From Candidatus Poribacteria bacterium (GTDB taxonomy: Bacteria > Poribacteria > DTPJ01 > WJIO01): DNA of 45,455 bases. Position numbers and translations under genes: made by a program. The stretch is taken from the NCBI GenBank assembly GCA_014730235.1, contig WJIO01000326.1, forward strand, positions 1 to 45,455, read 5' to 3'. The notes beneath the pieces were generated by a model. That model was not told the origin of the DNA. It saw nothing but the letters and a program-made list of their open reading frames with translations, and ran no database searches. This document shows positions 13,118 through 45,455 of the stretch, piece by piece. The number at the start of each line of letters is the position of its first letter. Within the stretch, counting starts at the first letter, position 1.

Positions 13118-14626
13118 TTATTTACCATGCAGCATTTTGTTTATTGCATTTACGTAGGCTTTAGCGCTTGATTCAATTACATCTGTACTTGCACCATGAC
13201 CAATAATTATCCTGTCACCGTCTTTAATTCGGATCAAAGCCTCCCCCATTGCATCTTTACCTTTTGTAACTGCGTTGATATTATAATCCATAAGTTCGAC
13301 TTTTACACCGGTAATTTTATCTATGGCCCTATAAGCAGCATCCACAGGTCCGTCACCGGTTTCTTCTTCCTTAAATAATTCATCACCTTTTTTCAATCCA
13401 ATAACTGCCCTGGGATTGATACCTGTTCCCCCATTGATTTCGATGTGTTCCAGGATATATACCTGGGGAACATAAGGTAATTCATCCTCTACAATGGCGA
13501 TTAAATCCTGATCGAAAACCTCTTTTTTCTTGTCTGCAACTTTCAGGAATCGTTCATAAGCCCTTTCCACCTGTTCATCTGATAGTTGATAACCCAGTTC
13601 AGAAAGTCTGTGCCGCAGGGCGTGACGACCAGACCTTGAAGTAAGTATTAACTCGCTTTGCTGAACTCCTACATCCCTGGGATCCATGATTTCGTATGTT
13701 TCCCGGCTTTTCAGTATGCCGTCCTGATGTACACCGGAACTGTGTGCAAAGGCGTTTCTGCCCACAATCGGCTTATTGGGCGGCACTATAAAACCAGTAA
13801 GACGGCTGACGAGTTTGCTGGTATTTATGATCTCTTTTGTATTGATATCGGTATAGGCATCGAAGTAGTCCTTCCGGGTCTTGATGGCCATTACCACCTC
13901 TTCCATAGGCGTATTTCCTGCTCTTTCCCCCATACCGTTTATGGTACATTCGATCTGATTGGCTCCGGCTTTTACAGCCGCCAGGGAATTGGATGTGGCC
14001 ATTCCAAGATCGTCATGACAGTGTATGCTAAGTCTGACATCATTTACAGCCGGAACATTTTTTATTATATCTTTAACAAGTGAGGCAAACTGGTCAGGAA
14101 CAGCATATCCCACAGTATCGGGTATATTTATGGCGGTTGCTCCCATTTCAATAGTCGCCTGGACTATTTCATATAAAAATTCCGTTTCAGCCCGGGCAGC
14201 ATCCATAGGTGAAAATTCCACCTCATGACATATAGACTTGGCCAGCTTTACCGATGATATGGCCATCTCCATTACCTGATCAGGTGTCTTTCTAAGTTGA
14301 CCAGCCATGTGTATAGGTGAAACGCCGATATACACATGTATCATGGGTTTCTGAGCCTTTTCGATGGCCTTTCCTGCCTGTATTACGTCTTTTTCAACGG
14401 AACGGGCCAGGGCGCATATGATAGGCCCCTCAACTTCCCGGGCAATGGCTGAAACTGCGTCAAAGTCCTCCTGAGATGAGATGGGATTTCCTGCTTCTAT
14501 GGCATCCACCTTGAGTTTTGCCAGTTGCTTTGCGATTTCCATTTTTTCCGCTGCATCCAGAGAAGCTCCGGGAGATTGTTCACCATCCCTCAGTGTGGTA
14601 TCAAATATAAATATTTTGCGTGGCAT
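13118..14626 (-). CDS. leuA: 2-isopropylmalate synthase
   Basis: 502 residues from the ATG at 14626, preceded by AGGAGGG with seven-base spacing. First enzyme of leucine biosynthesis: condenses acetyl-CoA with 2-oxoisovalerate. The N-terminus carries FDTTLRDGEQSPGASL (catalytic Arg/Asp and metal ligand), then SIHCHDDLGMATSNSLAAV with the HxH-type metal site, and GERAGNTPMEEVVMA. The C-terminal leucine-binding regulatory domain is present (YNINAVTKGKDAMGEALIRI, then GHGASTDVIESSAKAYVNAI), so feedback inhibition is likely. The frame stays open upstream, and a second well-formed start (ATG 14728 with AGGAGG) would add 34 residues. Last gene of the ileS operon. Confidence 0.93.
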   Translation of the reverse strand: MPRKIFIFDTTLRDGEQSPGASLDAAEKMEIAKQLAKLKVDAIEAGNPISSQEDFDAVSAIAREVEGPIICALARSVEKDVIQAGKAIEKAQKPMIHVYIGVSPIHMAGQLRKTPDQVMEMAISSVKLAKSICHEVEFSPMDAARAETEFLYEIVQATIEMGATAINIPDTVGYAVPDQFASLVKDIIKNVPAVNDVRLSIHCHDDLGMATSNSLAAVKAGANQIECTINGMGERAGNTPMEEVVMAIKTRKDYFDAYTDINTKEIINTSKLVSRLTGFIVPPNKPIVGRNAFAHSSGVHQDGILKSRETYEIMDPRDVGVQQSELILTSRSGRHALRHRLSELGYQLSDEQVERAYERFLKVADKKKEVFDQDLIAIVEDELPYVPQVYILEHIEINGGTGINPRAVIGLKKGDELFKEEETGDGPVDAAYRAIDKITGVKVELMDYNINAVTKGKDAMGEALIRIKDGDRIIIGHGASTDVIESSAKAYVNAINKMLHGK

Positions 14627-14747
14627 CTTATTGCCCTCCTTGATATTTTTATGATTATCTGAATTTTTAAGGTGTGGAAGATCACCCGGATCATTAAGTG
14701 AATCCACTCTGGTTTGATTCAACCCCATCCTCATCACCTCCTCGTGC

Positions 14748-15770
14748 TTAAATATACATATCTCTGTCAACAGCTTTGGCTATTCTTTGAAGTTCTTTCA
14801 TAAGCTTTTCAAACTGATCCGGCAGCAGTGACTGCACCCCATCGCCAGTCAGGGAGTTTTCAGGTTCGTGATGAACCTCAATAATAAGCCCATCAGCACC
14901 GGCTGCCACAGCGGCTTTTGCCATAGGCGCTACAAGTTCTCGTCTGCCTGTGGCGTGGCTTGGATCAACTATAACCGGCAGATGTGATAAATTCTTCAAT
15001 ACCGGAACAGCGTTTATATCAAGGGTGTTACGGGTGTAAGTTTCAAAAGTCCTTATCCCCCGCTCGCATAGCATGACGTTATGATTTCCATAGGATAAAA
15101 TATATTCTGCTGCCAATAAAAATTCCTCTATAGTGGCTGACATTCCCCGCTTCAGCATTACTGGTGTATTAGTTTGTCCCAGAGCTTTCAACAGGGTAAA
15201 ATTCTGCATGTTCCTGGCTCCGACCTGAAAGATGTCCGTATAGCTGGCTACAAGATCAACTTCCTCTGTTCCCATTATCTCTGTAATTACCGAAAGCCCG
15301 GTTTCTGTTTTTGCCTCAGCCAGCATGTCCAGACCTTTATCCCCTAACCCCTGGAAGCTGTAGGGGCCGGTTCTGGGTTTAAATGCACCTCCCCGAAGTA
15401 TCACCCCGCCGCCTTGCTTAACGGCTTTTGCTATTGTCGTTATCTGCCCCTGGCTTTCCACAGCGCATGGACCAGCCATGACAGCTATCTTTTTTCCACC
15501 GATTTTAATTCCATTAACATCAATTAACGTATCCTCAGAGTTAAACTCACGACTTGCTAGCTTATACGGTGATACTACAGCCATCACCTTTTCAACCCCT
15601 GGGGCGGCATTGATAGGAATTGTACGAAGAACGCGCTCATCACCGATAGCACCAATTAATGTGCGCTCTTCCCCTCTTGATATATGCTCTTTTAAGCCGA
15701 AATTGCGAAGACGATCAACTACATGCTGTATTTGTCCCTCCGTTGCTCCGGCTTTCATTACAATAACCAA
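14748..15770 (-). CDS. aroF: 3-deoxy-7-phosphoheptulonate (DAHP) synthase with ferredoxin-like domain
   Basis: 340 residues. TTG start, chosen because AGAAGGAG lies nine bases upstream and because [17 protein letters not shown] is the conserved beginning of the N-terminal ferredoxin-like regulatory domain (1-68). The barrel follows: [56 protein letters not shown] (metal-binding D and H). It condenses PEP and erythrose 4-phosphate, the entry to the shikimate pathway. This architecture is that of the Thermotoga-type enzyme, in which the N-terminal domain mediates aromatic feedback. It is 30 bases downstream of the methyltransferase gene. Confidence 0.93.
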
Positions 15771-15800: not shown

Positions 15801-16568
15801 TTATTTAACAGCAACAAATATCAATCTCTTGGCTGAATTCTTAGCTTCTTCTTGGGATATAAACTCACCATAACATTTTATATTACTAAAACCTGCTTCG
15901 CTAATTAATTTATACATCTCATTATAATTAATCATCCTGAATTTATGGGTTTCATGATAATATATTTCCTTATCATTATCCCGGATTATGCCGAATTCCT
16001 TATGAGTCCATATAGCCTTAACGTTGTCTATATAGTGTCTGATAGCCCTTTCAAAGCTGATACAATTTTTTGTATATTCTTCTACAACGTTTTCCTTGTA
16101 TCTGCCCAGTAGTGAAAGGAAATTCATCAAATCTAGAACCAATACCCCGCCGGTTTCAAGTGCTATATGAAAGGCCTTCAGGGTATTTAATATCTCTTCA
16201 TCCGTCAGCAGATATTGAAAGGCGGAATTCATGGATATTACCGCATGGAACTCACAATCAAAATCTATATCCCGCATGTCTTTATTGACTGTATGAATAT
16301 CATATTCAGAATCTTCAACCTTTTCTTCCAGGACTTTAAGCATATTTATGCTTTGATCCAGTCCAGCCGTTGAATAACCAATTTGAGCCAGCTTTATGGT
16401 ATGCCTTCCTGTTCCGCATCCTGCATCCAGAATCTTTTTTACCTGAATTCCGCTGAATTCCTGAAATACATATTCCAGGAATTCTATCTCCTGATCCACA
16501 TTTTGAATAAGACTTTCTGTCCGAATATCATAATATTCCGCGAAAGGTTTTGTGTAGGCTTTATCCAT
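15801..16568 (-). CDS. Class I SAM-dependent methyltransferase
   Basis: 255 residues. Motif I KILDAGCGTGRHT (45-57), acidic TAGLDQS, motif post-I and VISMNSAFQYL as in small-molecule methyltransferases of the Methyltransf_25/31 type. The start overlaps the ileS stop by 8 bases (ATGGATAA), and GGAG lies seven bases upstream inside ileS, so translational coupling is likely. Substrate unknown. A gene inserted between ileS and aroF could act on a translation component or a metabolite; nothing in the sequence decides. Confidence 0.8.
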   Translation of the reverse strand: MDKAYTKPFAEYYDIRTESLIQNVDQEIEFLEYVFQEFSGIQVKKILDAGCGTGRHTIKLAQIGYSTAGLDQSINMLKVLEEKVEDSEYDIHTVNKDMRDIDFDCEFHAVISMNSAFQYLLTDEEILNTLKAFHIALETGGVLVLDLMNFLSLLGRYKENVVEEYTKNCISFERAIRHYIDNVKAIWTHKEFGIIRDNDKEIYYHETHKFRMINYNEMYKLISEAGFSNIKCYGEFISQEEAKNSAKRLIFVAVK

Positions 16569-19500
16569 TTATCTGCTCCACACCGATGGTAGCTTTTTCA
16601 CCATTTATATTCCATTCTTTGACATAGGTGGATTCTGTAGGTTCTTCCAACATTTTTTTAGTTAGGGTTTCACTCATGATATAATCCATGAAATTTTCCA
16701 TCGTATCATAGATTGCGTCTGTTGACTTTATATAAAGCCTGATTCTGTCGGTTACGTTAAAATCAGCCTCTTTTCGCATAAACTGGATTTTGTTTATTAT
16801 TTCTCTGGCAAAACCCTCCTGAATTAGCTCTGGTGTAAGTTCTGTTAGCAATGAAGCGAAAAGATCATCTTCGGTTTCGGTTACATAACCTTCTCTGTCC
16901 TGGACCGATATTTCAACTTCTTCCGAAAGAAGCTCTATAATCTGATCTTCCACCTCCAGTTTAAGGACATCGTTGTTTTCCAGATCAGATTTTGCCTTTG
17001 AGCCATCTATCTCTGAAAGTTTACTGGCGATTTTTGGAACAAGCTTGCCGTATTTCCTGCCGATCATGCTGAATACAGGCTTTATATTATAATCAACCAA
17101 TTCACTAACATCCTTGGCAAAGTCTACGGACTTTACGTTTATTTCATCAACAATCAGGTCTTTAAAACGCTCTACTGCGTCTTTTTGAGCATCTGTCCTT
17201 GCACTGACGATCATTTCAGCTAAGGGCTGTCGAGTTTTGATGGCCACCCGATTTCTGGCAGCCCTGGCGAGTATCACCAGTTCTCTTATGTAGGCCATGT
17301 CCTCTTCAAGCTTTGAGTCAATGGCCTCAGCATTAGAGACTGGGTAATCGCAAAGATGTATGCTTTCCGGAGCGTTGGGATCTATTGAGCGCACCAGGTT
17401 TTGATAAATTTCCTCGGCCATAAAGGGCATAAATGGACTCACCAGCTTTGCGACTCCTACCAGAACCTCATATAAGGTTTTATAGGCGGCGATCTTATCG
17501 TCATCCATCTCCGAACCCCAGTATCGATCTCTACTGCGTCTTACATACCAGTTACTAAGGTCATCCACAAAATCATTGATAGCCCGAGTTGACCTGCTTA
17601 CATTGTATTCATCCATATTTTCCCGGACTGTCTTTACCAGGTTATTATAAAGGGATAATATCCATTTATCAATTACACTTCTTTTGCCGAAGGGCATGTT
17701 ATAGTCCAGGGGATTTATCTGGTCAATATTGGCATATAGCACAAAAAAGCTGTATACGTTATGTAAAGTTCCCATGAATTTTTTTATGACTTCCTCAACA
17801 GCTTCCTTGCTTAATGGTCGTCTGGTCCAGGGAGGACTTGAGCAAAAATACCATCTTAAAGCATCGGCTCCATGAACATCCAGTATTTCCTCTGGATTTA
17901 TCCTGTTGCCTTTACTTTTACTCATCTTCTTTCCGTCGGGCCCCAATACGTGTTCTACCACCAGACAGTTTTTGTATGAGGTTTCCCCGTAAAGAAAAAC
18001 CGAGGTAGCAAGAAGGCTGTAGAACCAACCCCTGGTTTGGTCAATGGCTTCGCAGATATAGTCACCGGGGAAGCTGTGTTTGAATTTATACTCATTTTCA
18101 TGGGGGTAATGCCATTGGGCTGTGTGCATCATTCCGGCATCAAACCAGCAGTCAATAACCTCCGGAACCCGGAGCATATCTCCACCACAGGCCTCGCAGG
18201 GAAATACCGCATCGTCAATATAAGGTTTATGTAATTCTATATCCTCCGGCACATCCGGACTTAGTTTCCTGAGTTCTGCTATACTTCCTACGCTATGTTG
18301 TTGGTTACATTCCTGGCAAATCCATATATTCAGTGGGGTTCCCCAGTATCTATCCCTGCTGATTGCCCAGTCCACGTTATTCTCAAGCCAGTTGCCGAAT
18401 ATACCCTCTTTTATATGCTCTGGATACCAGTTGATCTTCCTGTTTTGCTCTATCATCTTGTTTTTGTAGGTGGTGGTTTTTATAAACCATGAAGATCTGG
18501 CATAATATAAAAGGGGTGAATCACATCGCCAGCAGAAGGGGTAATCATGGGTATAAATTTCTTCCTTGAATAACAGACCTCGTTCTTTCAGGTTCTCTAT
18601 AATACCTGGATCCGCATCTTTAACGAATTTCTCAGCCCAGGGTTCTACCACTTCAGTGAATCTTCCATCCAGATCAACGGGTTGTATTACCGGCAGATCA
18701 TGCTTTCGACTCATTTCGTAATCGTCCTGACCAAAGGCCGGGGCCATGTGGACTATACCAGTACCTTCCTTCAGGGTGACAAAATCCCCTGCAACGGCAT
18801 AATAAGCCTTTTTCTCCGGCTTTACGAAATCAAACAATGGTTTGTAGGTTTCCCCCACTAATTCTAAGCCTTTCATCTTCTGGATTACTTCCGGCGATGT
18901 ATCAAATACTTCGTTTAAAAGCTCTTCAGCCAGGATTAGTTTTTCACCATTCCACTCAACCATCACGTAATCATAATCTTCACCCACAGCCACAGCGACA
19001 TTGGATGGAAGCGTCCAGGGAGTAGTAGTCCATACCAGAAGAGATGTGTTTTCCTCGTCCACCAGGCGCATCTTCACAAATACCGATGGGTCTTTTACTG
19101 CCGTATAACCCTGGGCCACCTCATGGCTTGAGAGTGGCGTTCCGCATCGGGCGCAGTATGGAACAACCTTATAGGCCTGATACAGCATATCCTCTTCCCA
19201 GAAACGCTTTAACGCCCACCATACACTTTCGATATAGTCATTGGTGAGGGTTATATAAGGATGATCAAGATCAAGCCAGTATCCTATCCTCTGTGTTAGA
19301 TCATTCCATTCATTCACATATTTGAATACGCTGTCTTTACATTTCTGATTGAATTTCTCAACACCATAGTCCTCGATTTGCCGTTTTCCGCTTATACCCA
19401 GTTCCTTTTCTACTTCAAGCTCCACCGGTAGACCATGAGTATCCCAACCGGCTTTTCTTCCCACGTAATGACCTGTCATTGTCTTGTATCTGCAGATCAG

Positions 19501-19698
19501 GTCTTTCATGGTTCGGGTGATAGTATGGGCGATAGTGGGCATACCGTTGGCTGTAGGAGGCCCTTCATAAAAAACAAAATCCGGACATCCCTCTCGGTTT
19601 GATATGGTTTTCTGGAAAATATCGTTGTTATTCCAGAAATCTATAGTCTTTATTTCCCGCTGAGGAAAATTCAAATCTGTTGATACTTCCTTAAACAT
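16561..19698 (-). CDS. ileS: Isoleucyl-tRNA synthetase
   Basis: 1045 residues, normal length for the Thermus/eukaryote-like IleRS type. GPPTANG (46-52), KAGWDTHGLPVELEVEK (82-98), CP1 editing domain, zinc-type CARCG (about 180), KMSKS (591-595, in DGKKMSKSKGN) and the anticodon-binding C-terminal domains are all present. One striking change: the HIGH signature is TIAH (T55 to H58) instead of HxGH. CAGGAGGC precedes the ATG. First gene of a four-gene operon whose leader carries a promoter, an Ile/Leu-rich leader reading frame and a terminator/antiterminator pair. Charges tRNA-Ile in the cytoplasm. Confidence 0.95.
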   Translation of the reverse strand: MFKEVSTDLNFPQREIKTIDFWNNNDIFQKTISNREGCPDFVFYEGPPTANGMPTIAHTITRTMKDLICRYKTMTGHYVGRKAGWDTHGLPVELEVEKELGISGKRQIEDYGVEKFNQKCKDSVFKYVNEWNDLTQRIGYWLDLDHPYITLTNDYIESVWWALKRFWEEDMLYQAYKVVPYCARCGTPLSSHEVAQGYTAVKDPSVFVKMRLVDEENTSLLVWTTTPWTLPSNVAVAVGEDYDYVMVEWNGEKLILAEELLNEVFDTSPEVIQKMKGLELVGETYKPLFDFVKPEKKAYYAVAGDFVTLKEGTGIVHMAPAFGQDDYEMSRKHDLPVIQPVDLDGRFTEVVEPWAEKFVKDADPGIIENLKERGLLFKEEIYTHDYPFCWRCDSPLLYYARSSWFIKTTTYKNKMIEQNRKINWYPEHIKEGIFGNWLENNVDWAISRDRYWGTPLNIWICQECNQQHSVGSIAELRKLSPDVPEDIELHKPYIDDAVFPCEACGGDMLRVPEVIDCWFDAGMMHTAQWHYPHENEYKFKHSFPGDYICEAIDQTRGWFYSLLATSVFLYGETSYKNCLVVEHVLGPDGKKMSKSKGNRINPEEILDVHGADALRWYFCSSPPWTRRPLSKEAVEEVIKKFMGTLHNVYSFFVLYANIDQINPLDYNMPFGKRSVIDKWILSLYNNLVKTVRENMDEYNVSRSTRAINDFVDDLSNWYVRRSRDRYWGSEMDDDKIAAYKTLYEVLVGVAKLVSPFMPFMAEEIYQNLVRSIDPNAPESIHLCDYPVSNAEAIDSKLEEDMAYIRELVILARAARNRVAIKTRQPLAEMIVSARTDAQKDAVERFKDLIVDEINVKSVDFAKDVSELVDYNIKPVFSMIGRKYGKLVPKIASKLSEIDGSKAKSDLENNDVLKLEVEDQIIELLSEEVEISVQDREGYVTETEDDLFASLLTELTPELIQEGFAREIINKIQFMRKEADFNVTDRIRLYIKSTDAIYDTMENFMDYIMSETLTKKMLEEPTESTYVKEWNINGEKATIGVEQING

Positions 19699-19732: not shown

Positions 19733-19770
19733 AAAAGCCCATCATTGAATTTATTCAATGATGGGCTTTT
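19733..19770 (-). terminator. Intrinsic terminator in the ileS leader (attenuator stem 3:4)
   Basis: On the - strand, 18-base arms AAAAGCCCATCATTGAAT and its exact reverse complement with two bases between, followed by UUUUUAAUUUUUAU. It ends 34 bases before the ileS ATG, so read-through is required for ileS expression. The left arm (19756-19766) can alternatively pair with 19812-19822. Confidence 0.85.
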
Positions 19771-19793
19771 GAAATTTCTAAATTTATCTATTT

Positions 19794-19949
19794 TTAACTG
19801 GAAATCTCAGCACCCACCATTGTCTGCAAAAGTCGTATGATGATAATATCGTCATTTAGAGCTAGAAGCAGATCAATAGCAGGTAACCTTGAATCAAAGG
19901 TTGAATTTCCAACATGTTCAAAAAATTTTATTTTTCCTGCATAATACAT
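19794..19949 (-). CDS. Ile/Leu-rich leader peptide of the ileS operon (51 residues)
   Basis: ATG at 19949 with AGGTG six bases upstream, stop TAA at 19794-19796. It lies between a strong promoter and the ileS terminator. The translation begins MYYAGKIKFFEHVGNS and contains AIDLLLALNDDIIIIRLLQT. Four Ile codons are consecutive (ATT ATC ATC ATA, 19836-19847), and 14 of 51 residues are Ile or Leu (7 each). The first base of the antiterminator segment lies 14 bases past the last Ile codon. This is the layout of transcription attenuation by ribosome stalling. It could instead be a small functional protein, but the genomic setting favours a leader peptide. Confidence 0.65.
   Translation of the reverse strand: MYYAGKIKFFEHVGNSTFDSRLPAIDLLLALNDDIIIIRLLQTMVGAEISS
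19812..19822 (-). promoter_or_regulatory. Antiterminator segment of the ileS attenuator
   Basis: On the - strand CAAUGGUGGGU pairs over all 11 positions with GCCCAUCAUUG (19756-19766), the left arm of the terminator: nine Watson-Crick pairs and two G-U pairs. A ribosome stalled at the Ile codons would leave it free. A ribosome reading through to the stop codon would pass over it and allow the terminator to form. Confidence 0.6.
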
Positions 19950-19984
19950 GGTAAACACCTGTTAGTATACGCCTATTTGAGGAA

Positions 19985-20013
19985 ATTCTATCATAAATAA
20001 TAGAGTGTGTCAA
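19985..20013 (-). promoter_or_regulatory. Sigma-70 promoter of the ileS operon
   Basis: On the - strand TTGACA (20013-20008), 17-base spacer, TAGAAT (19990-19985). Transcription would start near 19978 and give a leader of about 280 bases. Confidence 0.85.
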
Positions 20014-24169: not shown

Positions 24170-24252
24170 TATATTGTATATAAAATACATAAAGTATAAT
24201 ATATATTGTTGCGCAATAATTCCATATCATGTTATTATACGGAGGCAAGAAA

Positions 24253-27200
24253 ATGATAAATTTTCGGCGGCAATTGTTTTTGATTATACTATACTATATT
24301 ATAGCACAATTTGCTTTTGCTGATAGTTACTGGTATCCTGCTGATGTTTCTTCCAATAGCTGGGGTAACGTTAATTTTAACGATGTTTATTCAGTTGGCG
24401 AACATATATGGGTAGTAGGTGATAAAGGCACTATTATTCATACTGAAAATGGAATAGACTGGGAAGTCCAAAACAGTAAGGTGTATGGCAGGTTAAATGC
24501 TGTTTATTTTGATGAAAGCGCATCCCGGGGTTGGGTCGTGGGTGATTTTGGTGTTGTTCTTCATACTAGTGATGGCGGAAACGAATGGGAAGTAATGGAT
24601 ATTACCCCGCATAGGCATTTATATGATATAGATTTTGTAAGTATTAACAGGGGTTGGATCGTGGGTGAAGGTGGTATTATATTTCATACCGGTGATGGTG
24701 GAGAAAGCTGGACATCGGAGGAAATTGAAACCAAAGACCTTTATGCCGTACATTTTCTCTACAGTTACTATGGATGGGCTATGGGTAAGGAAGGAACTAT
24801 TCTACTTTGGAACGGTAGCACATGGGAGTTGCAGGAAAGCCCGACCGTTGAGGATATATATGATCTGGATTTTGCCGGCAGCAACGGATGGGCCGTTGGA
24901 GCCAGGGGAACTATACTCCGATTTACACTTACATTGAGTCAGAAATGGAAGGTATGGGAGGAAAAACCTACTTTTAGCGATCTTAATTCTATAAATTTTT
25001 CCGATGAATTACATGGGTGGATAGTTGGATCTTTTGGCACAATCCTCAATAATAACAAGGAAACTGTTTTTACTCCTGATAGCTGGAAAACCCAGGGTTG
25101 GTCTGGAAGCGACAGATTGAATGCTGTCAGGGCTTTAAATCCAAATAACATCTGGGCTTTCGGTGAAAAAGGTACAATAATACGTTCCACCGGCAGAAAA
25201 ATCGAGCAGACCCGAATTGACCTATTATCTCCTGCCTCTTATATACCTTCAAACATGCCGCTATTCAAATGGGATTGCAATAACAAAGACCTGGAATTCA
25301 TAGAATATATACTCTACATTGATAATGACAAAGATCCTTATAATGAGCCAAAAGTTGTTGTAGATACCATCGGTAGAAATCTGACTTATCAGCTTCAGCC
25401 GCCGGCCTTATCCGAGGGTAAATATTACTGGGGTATTATGATTAAAGATGGTTCTGCCAGAGCCACACCTAAAGAGTTTATTGTAGACCTTTCACCTCCT
25501 TCAGGAAGTATCCAGATTAACGATGACAAAGAATATACTAACTCTTTGTCTGTAAATCTTAAGTTATCTGCCTCAGATTTATTGCCTGACGGTGGAAATG
25601 GTATTGGTCTTTCAAAGATGAGGTTCAGCAATGACGGGCAAACCTGGTCCGATTGGGAACCATTCAATACACGCAGGGAAGAATGGCATCTGGCCCAATA
25701 TGGAGGAGATACAGAGGACGGTGAAAAAGGTGTTTATGTCCAGTTCCAGGACGGTCTGGAACATATCATGGAACAACCTGCCAGAGATACTATTATACTT
25801 GATACTGTTTCACCTACAGGTTCAGTGATAATAAATAATAACGCAGAATTCACCAGTTCCACAAAAGTTACACTATCTTTGTCTTCAACCGATGACAAGA
25901 GCGGCATGGAAAACGGTGAAATGCGTTTCAGCAATAACGGCGAGATATGGTCAGATACAGAACCTTTCGGAACAACGCGAAATCTCGATCTGGCTTTGTA
26001 TGGGGGTAATTCGGCTGAGGGAAATAAAACTGTATATGTAAAGTTTAGGGACTCAGCAGGCAACTGGATGAGTGAAACGGTAACGGATGAAATTATCCTG
26101 GATAAGACAGGGCCTTCGGGTACAATGGTAATTAACGATGGTGCAGAGGTTACCAAATCTCTTCTGGTTGATCTGAATATTTCTGCTTCCGATCAGAGTG
26201 GCGTTATTTCTATGGAATTTACTAATGGTAACGACCAGTGGTCTGTACGGGAGCCATACAGCACAGAAAAGAAAAATTGGGATCTTTCCAAATACGGTGG
26301 GAATTCGGAAAACGGCGTAAAAACTGTCTACGTCAGGTTTATTGATTCCGTCGGTAATATTACAAAGCCGACTGTAAGCGCAAATGTTGAATATAAATCC
26401 CAGGTGATAATATCTGCTCAAATATCATCCGCATTTGGAAAAGACAAGATCAAAAACGGTGATGCGGTCAATGTAAATGGCAACACTGAAAAGGATTTGG
26501 TTTCTATAGATTTTGCTGTATTGGATGAAAATGGGGATACGGTTTCTGCTGATGTGAATAATATTCAGTATGAGCCTGAAAACGGTGAAATAAGCGGTTC
26601 TTTTTTTCTGGGTGAAGTTGATGCTGGCTTAGTAAGCCTGAAAGTAAATGCTCTGGATTCCCTTGGAAACGAGGGAGAAGTGATTTCTAATTCCATACCA
26701 GTAGATAATGAACCGCCTTATGATATGGAGATGTCTATTGATCAGGGAGAAATTACCAATTCCAGAGCTGTTGACCTTACTATATCGGCATTAGATGCTG
26801 TTGAGATGTATCTGCATATTGATGTTGTTGATCAGGGGAATTGGATTCCCTATGAAACCAAATTACAGGATGTTGAACTTACAGAAGGCGATGGTATTAA
26901 GGAAATACGCGTAAAATTTCGGGATGATATTGGCAACGAATCGGCTTCTATAGGTTCCCAGATAATTCTGGATACTACCATTCCAAAAGGCTTTGTAACG
27001 ATAAATAATGACGATGAAATCACCAAAAATCCCTGGGTAATGTTAAACCTGACAGCAATAGATGAAAATGGTGTTGAAAGCTATCGCATCAGCAGTGATG
27101 GAGAGAGATGGACGGAATGGATGGGTATTCCCGATCCTGATTCATGGGAATATTCTTGGGATTTTGAGCTTGAGCAGTATGGCGGCGATCCCAGCGAAGG

Positions 27201-30200
27201 ATTGAAGACAGTATATGTTGAATATATGGACAAAGCTGGAAACATAAGTGAAAGGGCCACTGATGATATATACATAAATCTTAAAGCACCTACTATTTCC
27301 CGCATATTCCCTAAAGAGGGGGAAATCAAGGAAGCTATGAATCCCATCGGTGTTACCGTCCTTGTAAAAAGTACTCGACTTATAATTGATATAAACCTTT
27401 TTTATCGCATTAAAGGTCAGATTGAATATAAAAAACTTCCTATGATAAGATTACAGGAGGATTTTTTCAGTGCGGAAATTCCGGCCAGTGATGTTACTGT
27501 TGCTGGGGTTGAATATTATGTAAGGGCCACTGATGGTTTATGGACTGTTACAAATCCTGTTTTGGATGCTCCAGCTCTTCCCCATTCAGTAAAAGTAAGT
27601 GATACTCTTGATCCGATTATTGAACATAAGTCTTTAAAAAGAACACCTGTTTCTGAGTCACCGCAAATTTCTGCCATTGCTACAGATGCCGTAGGTGTTA
27701 AGTTTGTAAATCTATTTTATAGACTCCCGGGAGGTCTGGATTTTATAAAATCTGAAATGCTTCCTGACGAAACTGTTAGTAATACATATAAAGCTAGTAT
27801 ACCGGCCCTGGATGTTATGGGTAAGGTGGAGTATTATATAAGGGCAGAGGATGTATCGGGAAACAGCAAAACATCCCCTACAAGAGGTGCTAACCAACCT
27901 TATGTTATTGAGTTTGTGGATGTTGATCCTCCGGTAATACTCCATACAGAAATAGCTGATAACCAGGAAGCAGGCAATTCTGTTATTATTGGTGCAACCA
28001 TTACCGATAATATGATTGTTAGCTCTGTCTTATTGAAATATAAATCTTCCGGAAAAGATGAATCCGTTGAGTTAGAAATGACCAGCATAGGCGATTATTA
28101 TCGGGGGGAGGTACCTGCCGAAGCAGTAAAACCCGGGGAAATTGAATATTCTATCATTGCTTCCGACGAATCTCCTCAGTCTGATAATGCTATAGTAACA
28201 CATGTCTTTACAGTTGTGGATACAACGCCACCGAGTATTGAGGTTACCTTTGTTCCCTCCCAGGTAAATATTGGTGAAAGCATGGATATTTCCGCCACTG
28301 TTACAGACAAGGTTAAGGTTCAGTCTGTGAAAATTTATTATACGGCTGTGGATGGTAATCAATTTATACCTGTGGAAATGTCCGGCGAAGGAAATAATTA
28401 TTCTGCATCCATACCCGGACAATCGGATACCGGAGAGGTTAAGCTTTATATATATGCCGAAGACTCCCAGGGTGTATCATCTACCAATCCATTACTAAAT
28501 CCCGAAAATTCCCCCTTTGTGATAACCATACTGGATGTTTCCGCTCCGGTTATCCAGCATGCACCGGTTACTGGAGTCAGGGAAGCTGGTATATCTGTTG
28601 CTATTGTAGCTGATGTAACTGATGACTTGGCTGTAGTTGACGTATCTCTCCATTATCGCGTGGCTGGACAGATAGGTTTTAAGACCACTTCCATGCTGAA
28701 TACAGGTGCAGGTAATTCCTATGTGGGAAGCATACCGGATACAAGCGTTATAATTCCCGGTGTTGAATATTACATCAAAGCTGTTGATGATTCTTCGAAT
28801 CAGACCACACATCCCTTTGCCAATCATGATACTTTGCCCCATTCCTTTAGCGTTGAGGATACAGTTTCACCGGAAATTATATACAATCCAGATGATATGG
28901 AAACTGTCTTGATTACTGAGCCAATTGTTTTAAATCTGGAAGCGTCGGATCTGACTGGTATAAAAGAAGTAAGAGTTTATTACAGAAGATCCGGTCAGGA
29001 TAGCTTTACATCCCTTATATTCGATCATGTAGATAACAATGAATATTCTATTATGATCCCTTCACCATCTCTGGAAACTGAGGTTATGTATTATATACAG
29101 GCTTATGATAATTCGGGAAATATAACCACTATTCCCGCTGGCGCTCCTGATGTTTCTGAACCCTATTTAATAGAAGTTGAAGATCCATTTCCACCCGACC
29201 CGCCTACACGTCTTGCGGCTGGTGCCGCTCCCGATGGAATAATTATCCTTAGCTGGTATTTATCCGCATCCACAGATGTTTACAGGTATAACATATATAC
29301 TGATAACGGCAGTGGAAATGTTGATTTTTCCAGCATATATGACTTTGTGGATAAAAATACAAACAACTGGGAATCACCATCCTTAGGCGCGGGAGTTTAT
29401 AAGTTCGCTGTCAGGGCTGTTGATGAATCAGGTAATGAGGAGACGAATACTGTTACGGTGTCGGAAACTGCCGATTCCAATCCACCAAAATCAGTCACTG
29501 AGCTAACAGCTACGAGTCTGCCCAATGGACGTATAAGGCTTGATTGGGTGCTTTCATCCTCTAATGATGCAGCCGCTTATAACATATACTGGGATAACGC
29601 CCAGGTTAATGTTGATTACTCAAAATCCCTGGCCCGAGTAAATGATCCTGTAAAATCCTGGACATCTGAAGAGCTACGAGATGGTATCATGTATCGCTTT
29701 GTGGTGCGCTGTCAGGATTACGCCGGAAATGAGGAACAAAATACCACTTTTGTCAGTGCAAAAGCCGATGCTTCCCCGCCAGAAAGCGTCGTAGGATTGC
29801 ACAGCACTACTCATCAGATTGGTGAATGGTTAAACGAAACCCGGATAACGGTAAAATGGCTTCCGGCCGAAGATTCCGGAACTGGTTTGGCTGGATATTC
29901 TGTTTTATGGGACAATTCCCAGAGGACGCTGCCGGATAATACTATAGATGTGGAAAATGTAGTTACTCTCGGAAGAGTGCTTGACGGAGATTTGCCTGAT
30001 GGACATTATTTCCATATAAGGCCTGTGGATATTGCCGGAAATTGGAGCATAGATGCGGCTCATTTGGGGCCTTTCTTCATTGATACACAACCACCCAACC
30101 CACCAACTGGTTTAAAAGCTATAGCCCAGGCCAATGGAAAAGTAAATGTTTTCTGGACAGCCTCAATTTCTGAAGATGTGATTAAATATAATATATATTG

Positions 30201-31644
30201 GGACAGCGGAACCGGCAGTATTGACTATTCCATTCCCTTTGATTCCATAACTTCTGCTGATAATGTATGGATTTCTCCGGAACTGGTGGATGGTAAGTCC
30301 TATCAATTCAATGTCCGGGCCCAGGATCGGGCTGGTAATGAAGAAGAAAACACCCAAAAAACGGCTGCGGTTGCTGATAACCAACCACCTTCTATAGTCC
30401 ATGAGCCTATTCTGGGTATGCTGGAACAAGAGATCGTGGATGTTATGGTTCAGGCTGATGTCAGCGATTCATCAGGATTGGATAACGTTGTCTTGCATTA
30501 TCGTAGTCGCGGGCAGACCAATTACACCCAGGTCAATATGTCTGCAACAACCGGGGATACATATCAAAGCCAGATACCGGCCTCGGCTTTTTCTTCAACG
30601 GGTCTGGATTACTACATTTCCGCTGTTGATATTGCCGGAAATCTGGCTGAGATATCCGTAATGACTATAACCGTTAGTTCTTCTATAAGAATACCTGTGG
30701 TTTCCGATGGTGAAACTGAAATACTAGTTGGTGACAGCACCTATCTTTATTTCCCGACCGACTCCCTCGATGATACTGCTGAACTTATTGTTACCGTTCC
30801 CCGTTTTATACCGGAAGTGCAACCAGGACTTGGGGACCATATTTTAACCCGAGAATTTACATTAAGTTCCAGGGTAAACAAACTTATAACTTTTAGACTT
30901 AATTATAGCAACGACAAGCTGGTTGATGAGGATGAAAATCGGTTAGGGTTATATCTGTGGGATGGCACACAATGGGATTTTCTGACAAAGGTTAATCCCT
31001 CTTCAAATTCTGCCGAAATCCGGATAATGAAGTTTGGTATATTGAGCATAATTGGAGATTATGAACCACCCGATATATCCCAGGTAAGGCCTGTAGGATA
31101 TGCCCAGTCTGATACCACAATAACTGCATGGATAGAGGAAAACGGCAGTGGCATTGCTCCTGATGGTGTGGAAGTAACTTTAAATAACCAGTCTGTTAAT
31201 GTACCTGATACAGCCTTAAAAGAGGATAATTTGGTTCTGAAACTTCCTGATCTGTTGAATCCGGGTAGCTATTCACTGAGAATTACCGTAACGGACAAAG
31301 CCGGAAATCAAAGTTCTGCTACCGCTGGTTTTCAGGTAGAGGGTGAATTAGCTCTAAAAGATATATATTGTTATCCCAATCCCTTTGACCCCTCAAAGGT
31401 CGTCAATTTTTCCTATACTTTAACAGAACCCGTAAAAAAAGTGATACTAAGAGTATTTGGTATGGACGGTAAAAAGATAATTGAAAAAGAGGGAACAACG
31501 GATGTAGGCAAAAATATATTGCAATGGGATTGCAAAGATGAGATGGGTGACCAGATACTTAGCAGCGTTTATATTTGTTATATTGAAGTGGAAGGATCTG
31601 AAGAGACTGTGACCGAAACCATAAAGATAGCTGGTTGGAAATAA
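24253..31644 (+). CDS. Giant multidomain surface protein with Ycf48-like propeller, Ig-like and FN3 repeats, and Por-like tail
   Basis: 2463 residues from the ATG at 24253, chosen for GGAGG eight bases upstream; an ATG at 24229 has none. Signal peptide about 1-23. Residues about 24-316 are Ycf48/BNR-like propeller repeats (GWVVGDFGVVLHTSDGG, GWIVGEGGIIFHTGDGG). Then come three or more modules of the SGSIQINDDAExTxS...MRFSNDGQTWSDWEPF type (from about 413) and six modules of the PPVIxHxxV...YYIRAxDxSGN type (about 1011-1640). FN3-like repeats (PPDPPTRLAAGAAPDGxIxLSW) lie about 1648-2045, followed by one more module and a beta domain. From about 2366 to the end is a FlgD/Por-type tail with CYPNPFDPSKVVNFSYTL. 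Predicted adhesin- or matrix-like cell-surface protein. The PorV/PorQ-like gene follows 26 bases later. Confidence 0.75.
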   Translation: MINFRRQLFLIILYYIIAQFAFADSYWYPADVSSNSWGNVNFNDVYSVGEHIWVVGDKGTIIHTENGIDWEVQNSKVYGRLNAVYFDESASRGWVVGDFGVVLHTSDGGNEWEVMDITPHRHLYDIDFVSINRGWIVGEGGIIFHTGDGGESWTSEEIETKDLYAVHFLYSYYGWAMGKEGTILLWNGSTWELQESPTVEDIYDLDFAGSNGWAVGARGTILRFTLTLSQKWKVWEEKPTFSDLNSINFSDELHGWIVGSFGTILNNNKETVFTPDSWKTQGWSGSDRLNAVRALNPNNIWAFGEKGTIIRSTGRKIEQTRIDLLSPASYIPSNMPLFKWDCNNKDLEFIEYILYIDNDKDPYNEPKVVVDTIGRNLTYQLQPPALSEGKYYWGIMIKDGSARATPKEFIVDLSPPSGSIQINDDKEYTNSLSVNLKLSASDLLPDGGNGIGLSKMRFSNDGQTWSDWEPFNTRREEWHLAQYGGDTEDGEKGVYVQFQDGLEHIMEQPARDTIILDTVSPTGSVIINNNAEFTSSTKVTLSLSSTDDKSGMENGEMRFSNNGEIWSDTEPFGTTRNLDLALYGGNSAEGNKTVYVKFRDSAGNWMSETVTDEIILDKTGPSGTMVINDGAEVTKSLLVDLNISASDQSGVISMEFTNGNDQWSVREPYSTEKKNWDLSKYGGNSENGVKTVYVRFIDSVGNITKPTVSANVEYKSQVIISAQISSAFGKDKIKNGDAVNVNGNTEKDLVSIDFAVLDENGDTVSADVNNIQYEPENGEISGSFFLGEVDAGLVSLKVNALDSLGNEGEVISNSIPVDNEPPYDMEMSIDQGEITNSRAVDLTISALDAVEMYLHIDVVDQGNWIPYETKLQDVELTEGDGIKEIRVKFRDDIGNESASIGSQIILDTTIPKGFVTINNDDEITKNPWVMLNLTAIDENGVESYRISSDGERWTEWMGIPDPDSWEYSWDFELEQYGGDPSEGLKTVYVEYMDKAGNISERATDDIYINLKAPTISRIFPKEGEIKEAMNPIGVTVLVKSTRLIIDINLFYRIKGQIEYKKLPMIRLQEDFFSAEIPASDVTVAGVEYYVRATDGLWTVTNPVLDAPALPHSVKVSDTLDPIIEHKSLKRTPVSESPQISAIATDAVGVKFVNLFYRLPGGLDFIKSEMLPDETVSNTYKASIPALDVMGKVEYYIRAEDVSGNSKTSPTRGANQPYVIEFVDVDPPVILHTEIADNQEAGNSVIIGATITDNMIVSSVLLKYKSSGKDESVELEMTSIGDYYRGEVPAEAVKPGEIEYSIIASDESPQSDNAIVTHVFTVVDTTPPSIEVTFVPSQVNIGESMDISATVTDKVKVQSVKIYYTAVDGNQFIPVEMSGEGNNYSASIPGQSDTGEVKLYIYAEDSQGVSSTNPLLNPENSPFVITILDVSAPVIQHAPVTGVREAGISVAIVADVTDDLAVVDVSLHYRVAGQIGFKTTSMLNTGAGNSYVGSIPDTSVIIPGVEYYIKAVDDSSNQTTHPFANHDTLPHSFSVEDTVSPEIIYNPDDMETVLITEPIVLNLEASDLTGIKEVRVYYRRSGQDSFTSLIFDHVDNNEYSIMIPSPSLETEVMYYIQAYDNSGNITTIPAGAPDVSEPYLIEVEDPFPPDPPTRLAAGAAPDGIIILSWYLSASTDVYRYNIYTDNGSGNVDFSSIYDFVDKNTNNWESPSLGAGVYKFAVRAVDESGNEETNTVTVSETADSNPPKSVTELTATSLPNGRIRLDWVLSSSNDAAAYNIYWDNAQVNVDYSKSLARVNDPVKSWTSEELRDGIMYRFVVRCQDYAGNEEQNTTFVSAKADASPPESVVGLHSTTHQIGEWLNETRITVKWLPAEDSGTGLAGYSVLWDNSQRTLPDNTIDVENVVTLGRVLDGDLPDGHYFHIRPVDIAGNWSIDAAHLGPFFIDTQPPNPPTGLKAIAQANGKVNVFWTASISEDVIKYNIYWDSGTGSIDYSIPFDSITSADNVWISPELVDGKSYQFNVRAQDRAGNEEENTQKTAAVADNQPPSIVHEPILGMLEQEIVDVMVQADVSDSSGLDNVVLHYRSRGQTNYTQVNMSATTGDTYQSQIPASAFSSTGLDYYISAVDIAGNLAEISVMTITVSSSIRIPVVSDGETEILVGDSTYLYFPTDSLDDTAELIVTVPRFIPEVQPGLGDHILTREFTLSSRVNKLITFRLNYSNDKLVDEDENRLGLYLWDGTQWDFLTKVNPSSNSAEIRIMKFGILSIIGDYEPPDISQVRPVGYAQSDTTITAWIEENGSGIAPDGVEVTLNNQSVNVPDTALKEDNLVLKLPDLLNPGSYSLRITVTDKAGNQSSATAGFQVEGELALKDIYCYPNPFDPSKVVNFSYTLTEPVKKVILRVFGMDGKKIIEKEGTTDVGKNILQWDCKDEMGDQILSSVYICYIEVEGSEETVTETIKIAGWK

Positions 31645-43938: not shown

Positions 43939-45455
<1,517 letters not shown>

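Follow-up and report, generated by a model that had tools for sequence, protein, structure and literature searches.

Analysis of the region upstream of the isoleucyl-tRNA synthetase gene ileS in a 45,455-nucleotide stretch of Candidatus Poribacteria DNA (contig WJIO01000326.1, here called the window) leads us to conclude, with a probability of about 0.9, that it specifies a ribosome-mediated transcription attenuator. The element appears to belong to a phylum-wide family of homologous leaders in which the core GGTGGG...GCCCATC is kept and the regulatory codons differ from operon to operon. The original prediction, of a leader-peptide attenuator controlling ileS together with aroF and leuA, is supported by the comparative tests; its scope was too narrow, as the module occurs throughout the phylum and is not confined to ileS. 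The parts of the element, their conservation and co-variation, and the matching of leader codons to downstream genes are evident from comparison of the genomes. The features of the locus are as follows, with the evidence in brackets.

19985–20013, minus strand: predicted leader promoter, TTGACA-17-TAGAAT with TG before the −10 (consensus scan, 11 of 12 positions)
19956–19960, minus strand: AGGTG, candidate Shine–Dalgarno sequence of the leader ORF, 6 nt 5′ of the ATG (sequence)
19794–19949, minus strand: leader ORF, 51 codons plus stop, ATG at 19949 and stop at 19794 (counterparts at 52 inspected ileS loci in the phylum)
19868–19884, minus strand: segment 1, 17 nt, holding Ile and Leu codons and pairing with segment 2 (hairpin of −26.8 kcal/mol; duplex better than in 300 of 300 shuffles)
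19836–19847, minus strand: putative regulatory codons ATT ATC ATC ATA, four Ile (leader ORF reading, folding)
19812–19822, minus strand: segment 2, antiterminator 5′ arm, CAATGGTGGGT (pairing, folding, covariation)
19801–19809, minus strand: 5′ arm of the inner antiterminator helix, inside the last ORF codons (fold with a ribosome placed on the Ile codons)
19770–19778, minus strand: 3′ arm of the inner antiterminator helix (folding)
19754–19770, minus strand: segment 3, terminator 5′ arm, of which 19756–19766 is the antiterminator 3′ arm (hairpin scan, folding)
19733–19749, minus strand: segment 4, 3′ arm of the terminator, with a U-rich tract after it (hairpin scan, folding)
16561–19698, minus strand: ileS, isoleucyl-tRNA synthetase, 1045 aa (TIGR00392, 982 bits)
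15801–16568, minus strand: SAM-dependent methyltransferase gene, overlapping ileS (PF13649)
14748–15770, minus strand: aroF, DAHP synthase (TIGR01361)
13118–14770, minus strand: leuA, 2-isopropylmalate synthase, overlapping aroF (TIGR00973)

The consensus scan placed its top-scoring promoter 5′ of the leader; the terminator lies some 35 nt 5′ of ileS. Between this promoter and ileS is a short ORF with a candidate ribosome-binding site, whose translation is MYYAGKIKFFEHVGNSTFDSRLPAIDLLLALNDDIIIIRLLQTMVGAEISS and which has GTG at 19958 as an alternative start; between the ORF and ileS is an intrinsic terminator. The promoter, the leader ORF with its own Shine–Dalgarno sequence, the run of four Ile codons accompanied by seven Leu codons, and the terminator with its U-tract before ileS match what had been predicted almost to the base. 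The ileS, methyltransferase, aroF and leuA genes are all co-directional, with two overlaps. When the 280-nt leader was compared with 2,000 dinucleotide shuffles, an IIII run arose in 34, an equal segment 2 in 7 and an equal terminator in none; no shuffle combined all three features, and a chance origin was therefore rejected. The fold of the leader has a z-score of −6.6. With regard to the synthetase itself, the MupA/MupB models of mupirocin-resistant enzymes give 993 bits, below their cut-offs, against 982 for the ileS model, which suggests a type-2 IleRS. Elsewhere in the window, positions 24229–31644 encode a 2471-aa protein with YCF48-like repeats and fibronectin III and Ig-like domains, and a 16S rRNA gene occupies 43939–45455, at the contig's right edge.

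The predicted terminator (19770–19733) consists of 17 contiguous base pairs and a 4-nt loop with a U-rich tail, and has a folding energy of −24.2 kcal/mol; it had been correctly foreseen save for the arm length, which had been put at 18 bp. Segment 2 starts 13 nt past the last Ile codon. Both pairing and folding recovered the complementarity proposed between this segment and the left arm of the terminator, 19822–19812 (CAAUGGUGGGU) pairing with 19766–19756 (GCCCAUCAUUG) over 11 positions, two of which are G–U. The resulting antiterminator, lengthened by a 9-bp inner helix (19809–19801 with 19778–19770), lies just 3′ of the regulatory codons and is mutually exclusive with the terminator. Segment 1 and the inner helix are new relative to the original prediction.

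We then placed a ribosome on one codon after another and folded the RNA 3′ of it, assuming that the ribosome edge lies 13 nt past the first base of the A-site codon. For a ribosome on Ile codon 1 or 4, and a transcript that includes segment 3 and stops short of segment 4, the most stable fold (−24.0 kcal/mol) is the 2:3 pairing plus inner helix; the 2:3 antiterminator is the best fold with the ribosome on any of the Ile codons once segment 3 exists. With the ribosome past segment 2, the terminator has no stable competitor. Folding with and without the ribosome-covered part, as had been suggested, favours the antiterminator at an Ile stall and the terminator past segment 2. When segment 4 is included, the terminator is part of the best fold at all ribosome positions tried, so that the mechanism would depend on the order of synthesis, as in classical attenuation. 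For the window leader free of ribosomes and transcribed as far as segment 3, with segment 4 still unmade, the 2:3 pairing is likewise predicted. The 1:2 hairpin, which in the window leader carries the Ile codons in its loop, is strong here and in some relatives and is not significant in several genomes of families f3, f6 and f8; a universal 1:2 hairpin was rejected because it is not conserved across families.

From these features we infer a mechanism in which transcription would start near 19978 and a ribosome would trail RNA polymerase along the leader ORF. If Ile-tRNA or, further upstream, Leu-tRNA were short, the ribosome would stall on the Ile or Leu codons and segment 1 would be covered or separated, leaving segment 2 to pair with segment 3, with the inner helix, ahead of the synthesis of segment 4. 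Polymerase would then enter the ileS–methyltransferase–aroF–leuA operon. If the tRNAs were charged, the translating ribosome would pass segment 2 to the stop codon and cover the inner helix; segment 1 could pair with segment 2 and segment 3 with segment 4, and transcription would stop.

Conservation was assessed in a sample of 85 genomes from the phylum, the window genome being G000. Relatives of ileS are present in 59 of 59 sampled genomes, a few of the matches being partial or weak. Of the 52 ileS leaders inspected, 49 have a simple segment 2 plus segment 3 pattern, and three, from family f4, have a diverged version. A covariance model of the module found matches at E ≤ 1e-5 in 78 of the 85 genomes, a count that takes in matches before any gene and not ileS alone, and in 55 of 56 good-quality genomes; the majority of matches precede ileS. 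The module is absent from the inspected ileS upstream regions of G036 and G044, G004 has a terminator-like hairpin only, the Ile-rich frame of G068 has no ordinary start codon, and the G007 leader has just two or three Ile codons. G051 has two copies of ileS (L010, L069), each with its own Ile-codon leader. The motif ACGATGCGACGCCGCGTG, which may be a Poribacteria primer, is exact in eight of nine genomes examined. Outside the phylum, a hairpin scan of the regions upstream of 23 named ileS loci found the same module in none. Just 5′ of ileS in an Acetothermia locus (L034) is a short ORF, MRVKLTWTRPTSIIILPL-stop, followed by a GC hairpin that has no clear U-tract; this may be an Ile leader peptide of independent origin in a different phylum.

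Related ileS leaders keep all three features that the original prediction expected to recur in them: a small frame, a run of Ile codons and the alternative pairing. Most leaders have four to eight in-frame Ile codons, and the length of the run changes by whole codons. Over the last 20 codons of the 49 leaders, the best frame contains a mean of 5.0 Ile, compared with 0.94 and 0.04 in the other two. A typical f3 leader peptide ends ...RAISIIIAIRRAVVG-stop, with the stop codon immediately 3′ of segment 2; an f5 peptide contains ...SIGIISIIIGIPRDGG... and an f9 peptide ...LLGIIIGLLRAGGG... Aside from the regulatory codons the peptides are barely conserved, and the RNA module is kept between families. 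The stop codon ranges from 16 nt before the end of segment 2 to 20 nt after it, and the basis of the default terminated state may accordingly differ between families.

The arms of the antiterminator co-vary between families; in G041, for example, GTTGGGCTGAGGATGGG pairs with CCCATCATCAGCCCAAT. Among 11 representatives of eight families, the pairing of segment 2 is better with the segment 3 of the same leader than with a foreign one (permutation p = 8e-5). Across 29 segment pairs, selected by hand or by pattern and hence biased towards pairing, 83% of cells pair, a level reached in 0 of 500 shuffles, and the covariation score was equalled by 2 of 500; slid registers score far below the true one. 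The core GGTGGG/CCCATC is nearly invariant, so that the statistical support for the pairing comes from the outer pairs.

Leader codons follow operon content. Near segment 2, leaders of lone ileS genes have 26% Ile, 4% Leu and about 1% aromatic codons, and leaders of ileS operons that also hold aroF–leuA add Leu or Leu plus Phe/Tyr/Trp codons. The genes after ileS were read in 11 genomes, the remaining lone-ileS cases being assumed from their family. In G016 (ileS–aroF–leuA) the leader contains ...ARIYIFLFWLSYFYALGLFRVVG..., and the leader of G059, which lay outside model building, is of the same type, as known from the leader alone and not from a reading of the operon. Ile and Leu codons occur together in G000, with its ileS–methyltransferase–aroF–leuA operon, and in G041 and G003, where leuA is downstream of ileS. 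This difference from the Ile-only leaders of lone ileS genes supports the earlier suggestion that Leu may be sensed because leuA is in the operon, and falls short of indicating that each codon type acts.

The ileS covariance model also matches upstream of other genes, with leader codons to suit. Leaders before tyrS include ...FLYLFYWCYSDGL... (G030) and ...NFYYYYCG-stop (G001); those before aroF–leuA or aroG–leuA in several genomes contain ...YYRSFYAWALYAFLLYLRSDGG..., with Phe/Tyr/Trp/Leu codons; the cimA leader of G016 ends ...VIAIIIIIRIAAPCVVGGG-stop (Ile); the metG leader of G024 contains ...IIMIFMMV... (Met); and leuS is preceded by the module in G029, G030 and G058 (Leu/Ile). The window genome has a second attenuator-like leader, with six Tyr codons, before tyrS (C138, L203; MKKTEISMKNIFTTESQPYFYYTYQYVYSLLSMVGNGIFS-stop), and a further one with Leu and Ile codons before a GNAT–GNAT–cimA–leuB–leuS operon (C311, L217). 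Its leader MMIMMAMSMSHRLWGETMLM-stop, followed by a terminator, precedes the HcyBio homocysteine-biosynthesis gene (PF01837; C233, L138) and is possibly a methionine leader peptide. The trpS leader of G001 (...IWRWWC...) has a strong alternative pairing and the same architecture, without the core sequence; it and the G000 tyrS leader came from a hairpin scan, not from the covariance model. In nine genomes that scan found no attenuators at valS, at most trpS genes or at most metG genes. A model match before a threonine-synthase-like gene in G036 (L177) was dropped for want of a convincing segment 2. In genus g6 (L121–L123, L125, L146–L148) an ileS-type module stands before a DUF5916/CBM9-like gene, and this leader has lost the Ile run (...VLIGIAMCRAVVGE-stop).

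Of 14 matches in genomes outside model building, 12 are translatable leaders with the codons expected from the gene; the other two, both in G068, are the ileS leader already described, with Ile codons and no usual start, and an apparent wrong-strand match near an aroF-type gene (L227). For 31 leaders, extracted by hand and not blind, none of 20,000 label shuffles gave as good a cognate-codon content. The regulatory codon run is related to the operon, both in the Ile run of the window and in the codon–gene matching of the 31 leaders. On balance, we lean towards the view that a single ancestral core was duplicated to, or retained at, numerous operons and retuned by codon exchange, giving a modular leader-peptide regulon for Ile, Leu, Tyr, Met and aromatic/Leu. 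This regulon would include sensors of several amino acids matched to operon content, and a Met leader before HcyBio, with ilv (Val) and pheST (Phe) remaining under T-boxes.

It is very unlikely that the terminator merely ends an upstream transcript, or that the ORF is a genuine small protein gene, with ileS served by its own later promoter. A small gene followed by a terminator would look similar at first sight; however, the best promoter found is 5′ of the leader, the terminator closely precedes ileS, the complementarity of segment 2 would be useless to a plain terminator, and the module bears other codons ahead of other synthetase genes. Nor does the ORF behave as a conserved protein found away from ileS, the finding that would have told against the original prediction: it adjoins ileS, the N-terminal part has a pN/pS of 0.83, and constraint is limited to the last 16 codons (0.22, with halved pS). 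With pN/pS near neutral save at the 3′ end, and with the RNA rather than the peptide conserved between families, the small-protein reading was rejected. We regard as slightly less probable still an action through nascent-peptide arrest (IIIAIRRAVVG in the exit tunnel) or translational control in place of uncharged tRNA at the codons. The near invariance of the C-terminal IRRAVVG in family f3 would favour arrest, but beyond f3 the sequence gives way to IPRDGG, IRLLQTMVG and GLLRAGGG, and VVG, MVG and DGG arise because the RNA segment GGTGGG is read in different frames. The tracking of downstream genes by codon content and the U-tract terminator of nearly all leaders also speak against this explanation.

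The least credible possibility, to which we give next to no weight, is that a T-box, or some other known RNA that senses tRNA or a metabolite, controls ileS. In other phyla ileS is under T-box control, Chloroflexota loci have a T-box-like GGGTGGTACCGCGG upstream of ileS, and the genomes of this phylum do possess T-boxes, in 57 of 59. However, the 15 T-boxes inspected, from 10 genomes, lie upstream of pheS, ilvD or ilv-synthase genes, with gene names assigned by us from the sequences; behind one T-box, in G041, the first long ORF listed is pheT-like. In G000 the specifiers, read by eye, are GUC (Val) before ilvD–ilvB and UUC (Phe) before pheST. Neither the window leader nor the ileS loci of 20 relatives gave a match at gathering score to the T-box family RF00230 or to the Rfam leader families (Trp, Leu, His, Thr, Phe and others), and a known Rfam element at ileS was rejected on these grounds. 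Overall, ribosome-mediated attenuation remains the reading that we prefer.

If correct, this reading would extend classical attenuation to a whole phylum and to ileS, tyrS, metG and HcyBio, and would give a function to unannotated leader ORFs in some 85 genomes. Since the core is homologous and the codons vary, the phylum would offer a natural series on the exchange of regulatory codons as operons gain or lose genes; the ileS–aroF–leuA leaders, for instance, bear codons missing from lone-ileS leaders. In the open literature searched we found no description of attenuation in this phylum and no leader-peptide attenuator for ileS, tyrS, metG or HcyBio, priority being uncertain as the survey of Lopatovskaya et al. 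(2010) lay outside the search.

The trp, ilv and pheST operons of Escherichia coli are the classic targets of leader-peptide attenuators. The elements described here resemble them in the short ORF with its regulatory codon run, the alternative 2:3 and 3:4 pairings, to which the window leader and some relatives add a strong 1:2 hairpin, and the intrinsic terminator. They differ in their targets, namely ileS, tyrS, leuS, metG, aroF–leuA, cimA and HcyBio, and in the reuse of one homologous core before many operons. The allocation is moreover reversed, pheST and ilv being under T-boxes in this phylum and under leader peptides in E. coli. T-box control of ileS, known from Firmicutes, Actinobacteria and Chloroflexota, is alike in function, sensing uncharged tRNA-Ile before ileS; there, however, the RNA binds the tRNA directly and has no leader ORF, and a search for a T-box here found none in the window leader or at the ileS loci of 20 relatives. 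From comparative genomics, leuS and trpS of Streptomyces were predicted to have attenuators, and ilvB of Actinobacteria to have such leaders; in several of these Actinobacteria ileS has translational T-boxes (PMC1262725). These too place leader peptides before synthetase genes, but in another phylum, and no core common to several operons was described there. The His leader peptides of hisZ/hisS* in Bacillus (PMC2965389) likewise stand in place of a T-box before a synthetase gene; they concern one amino acid and one gene family, whereas the present leaders cover Ile, Leu, Tyr, Trp, Met and aromatic combinations. Judged from the sequences, the Poribacteria system would be classical attenuation by mechanism, and new in target, in lineage and in its modular reuse.
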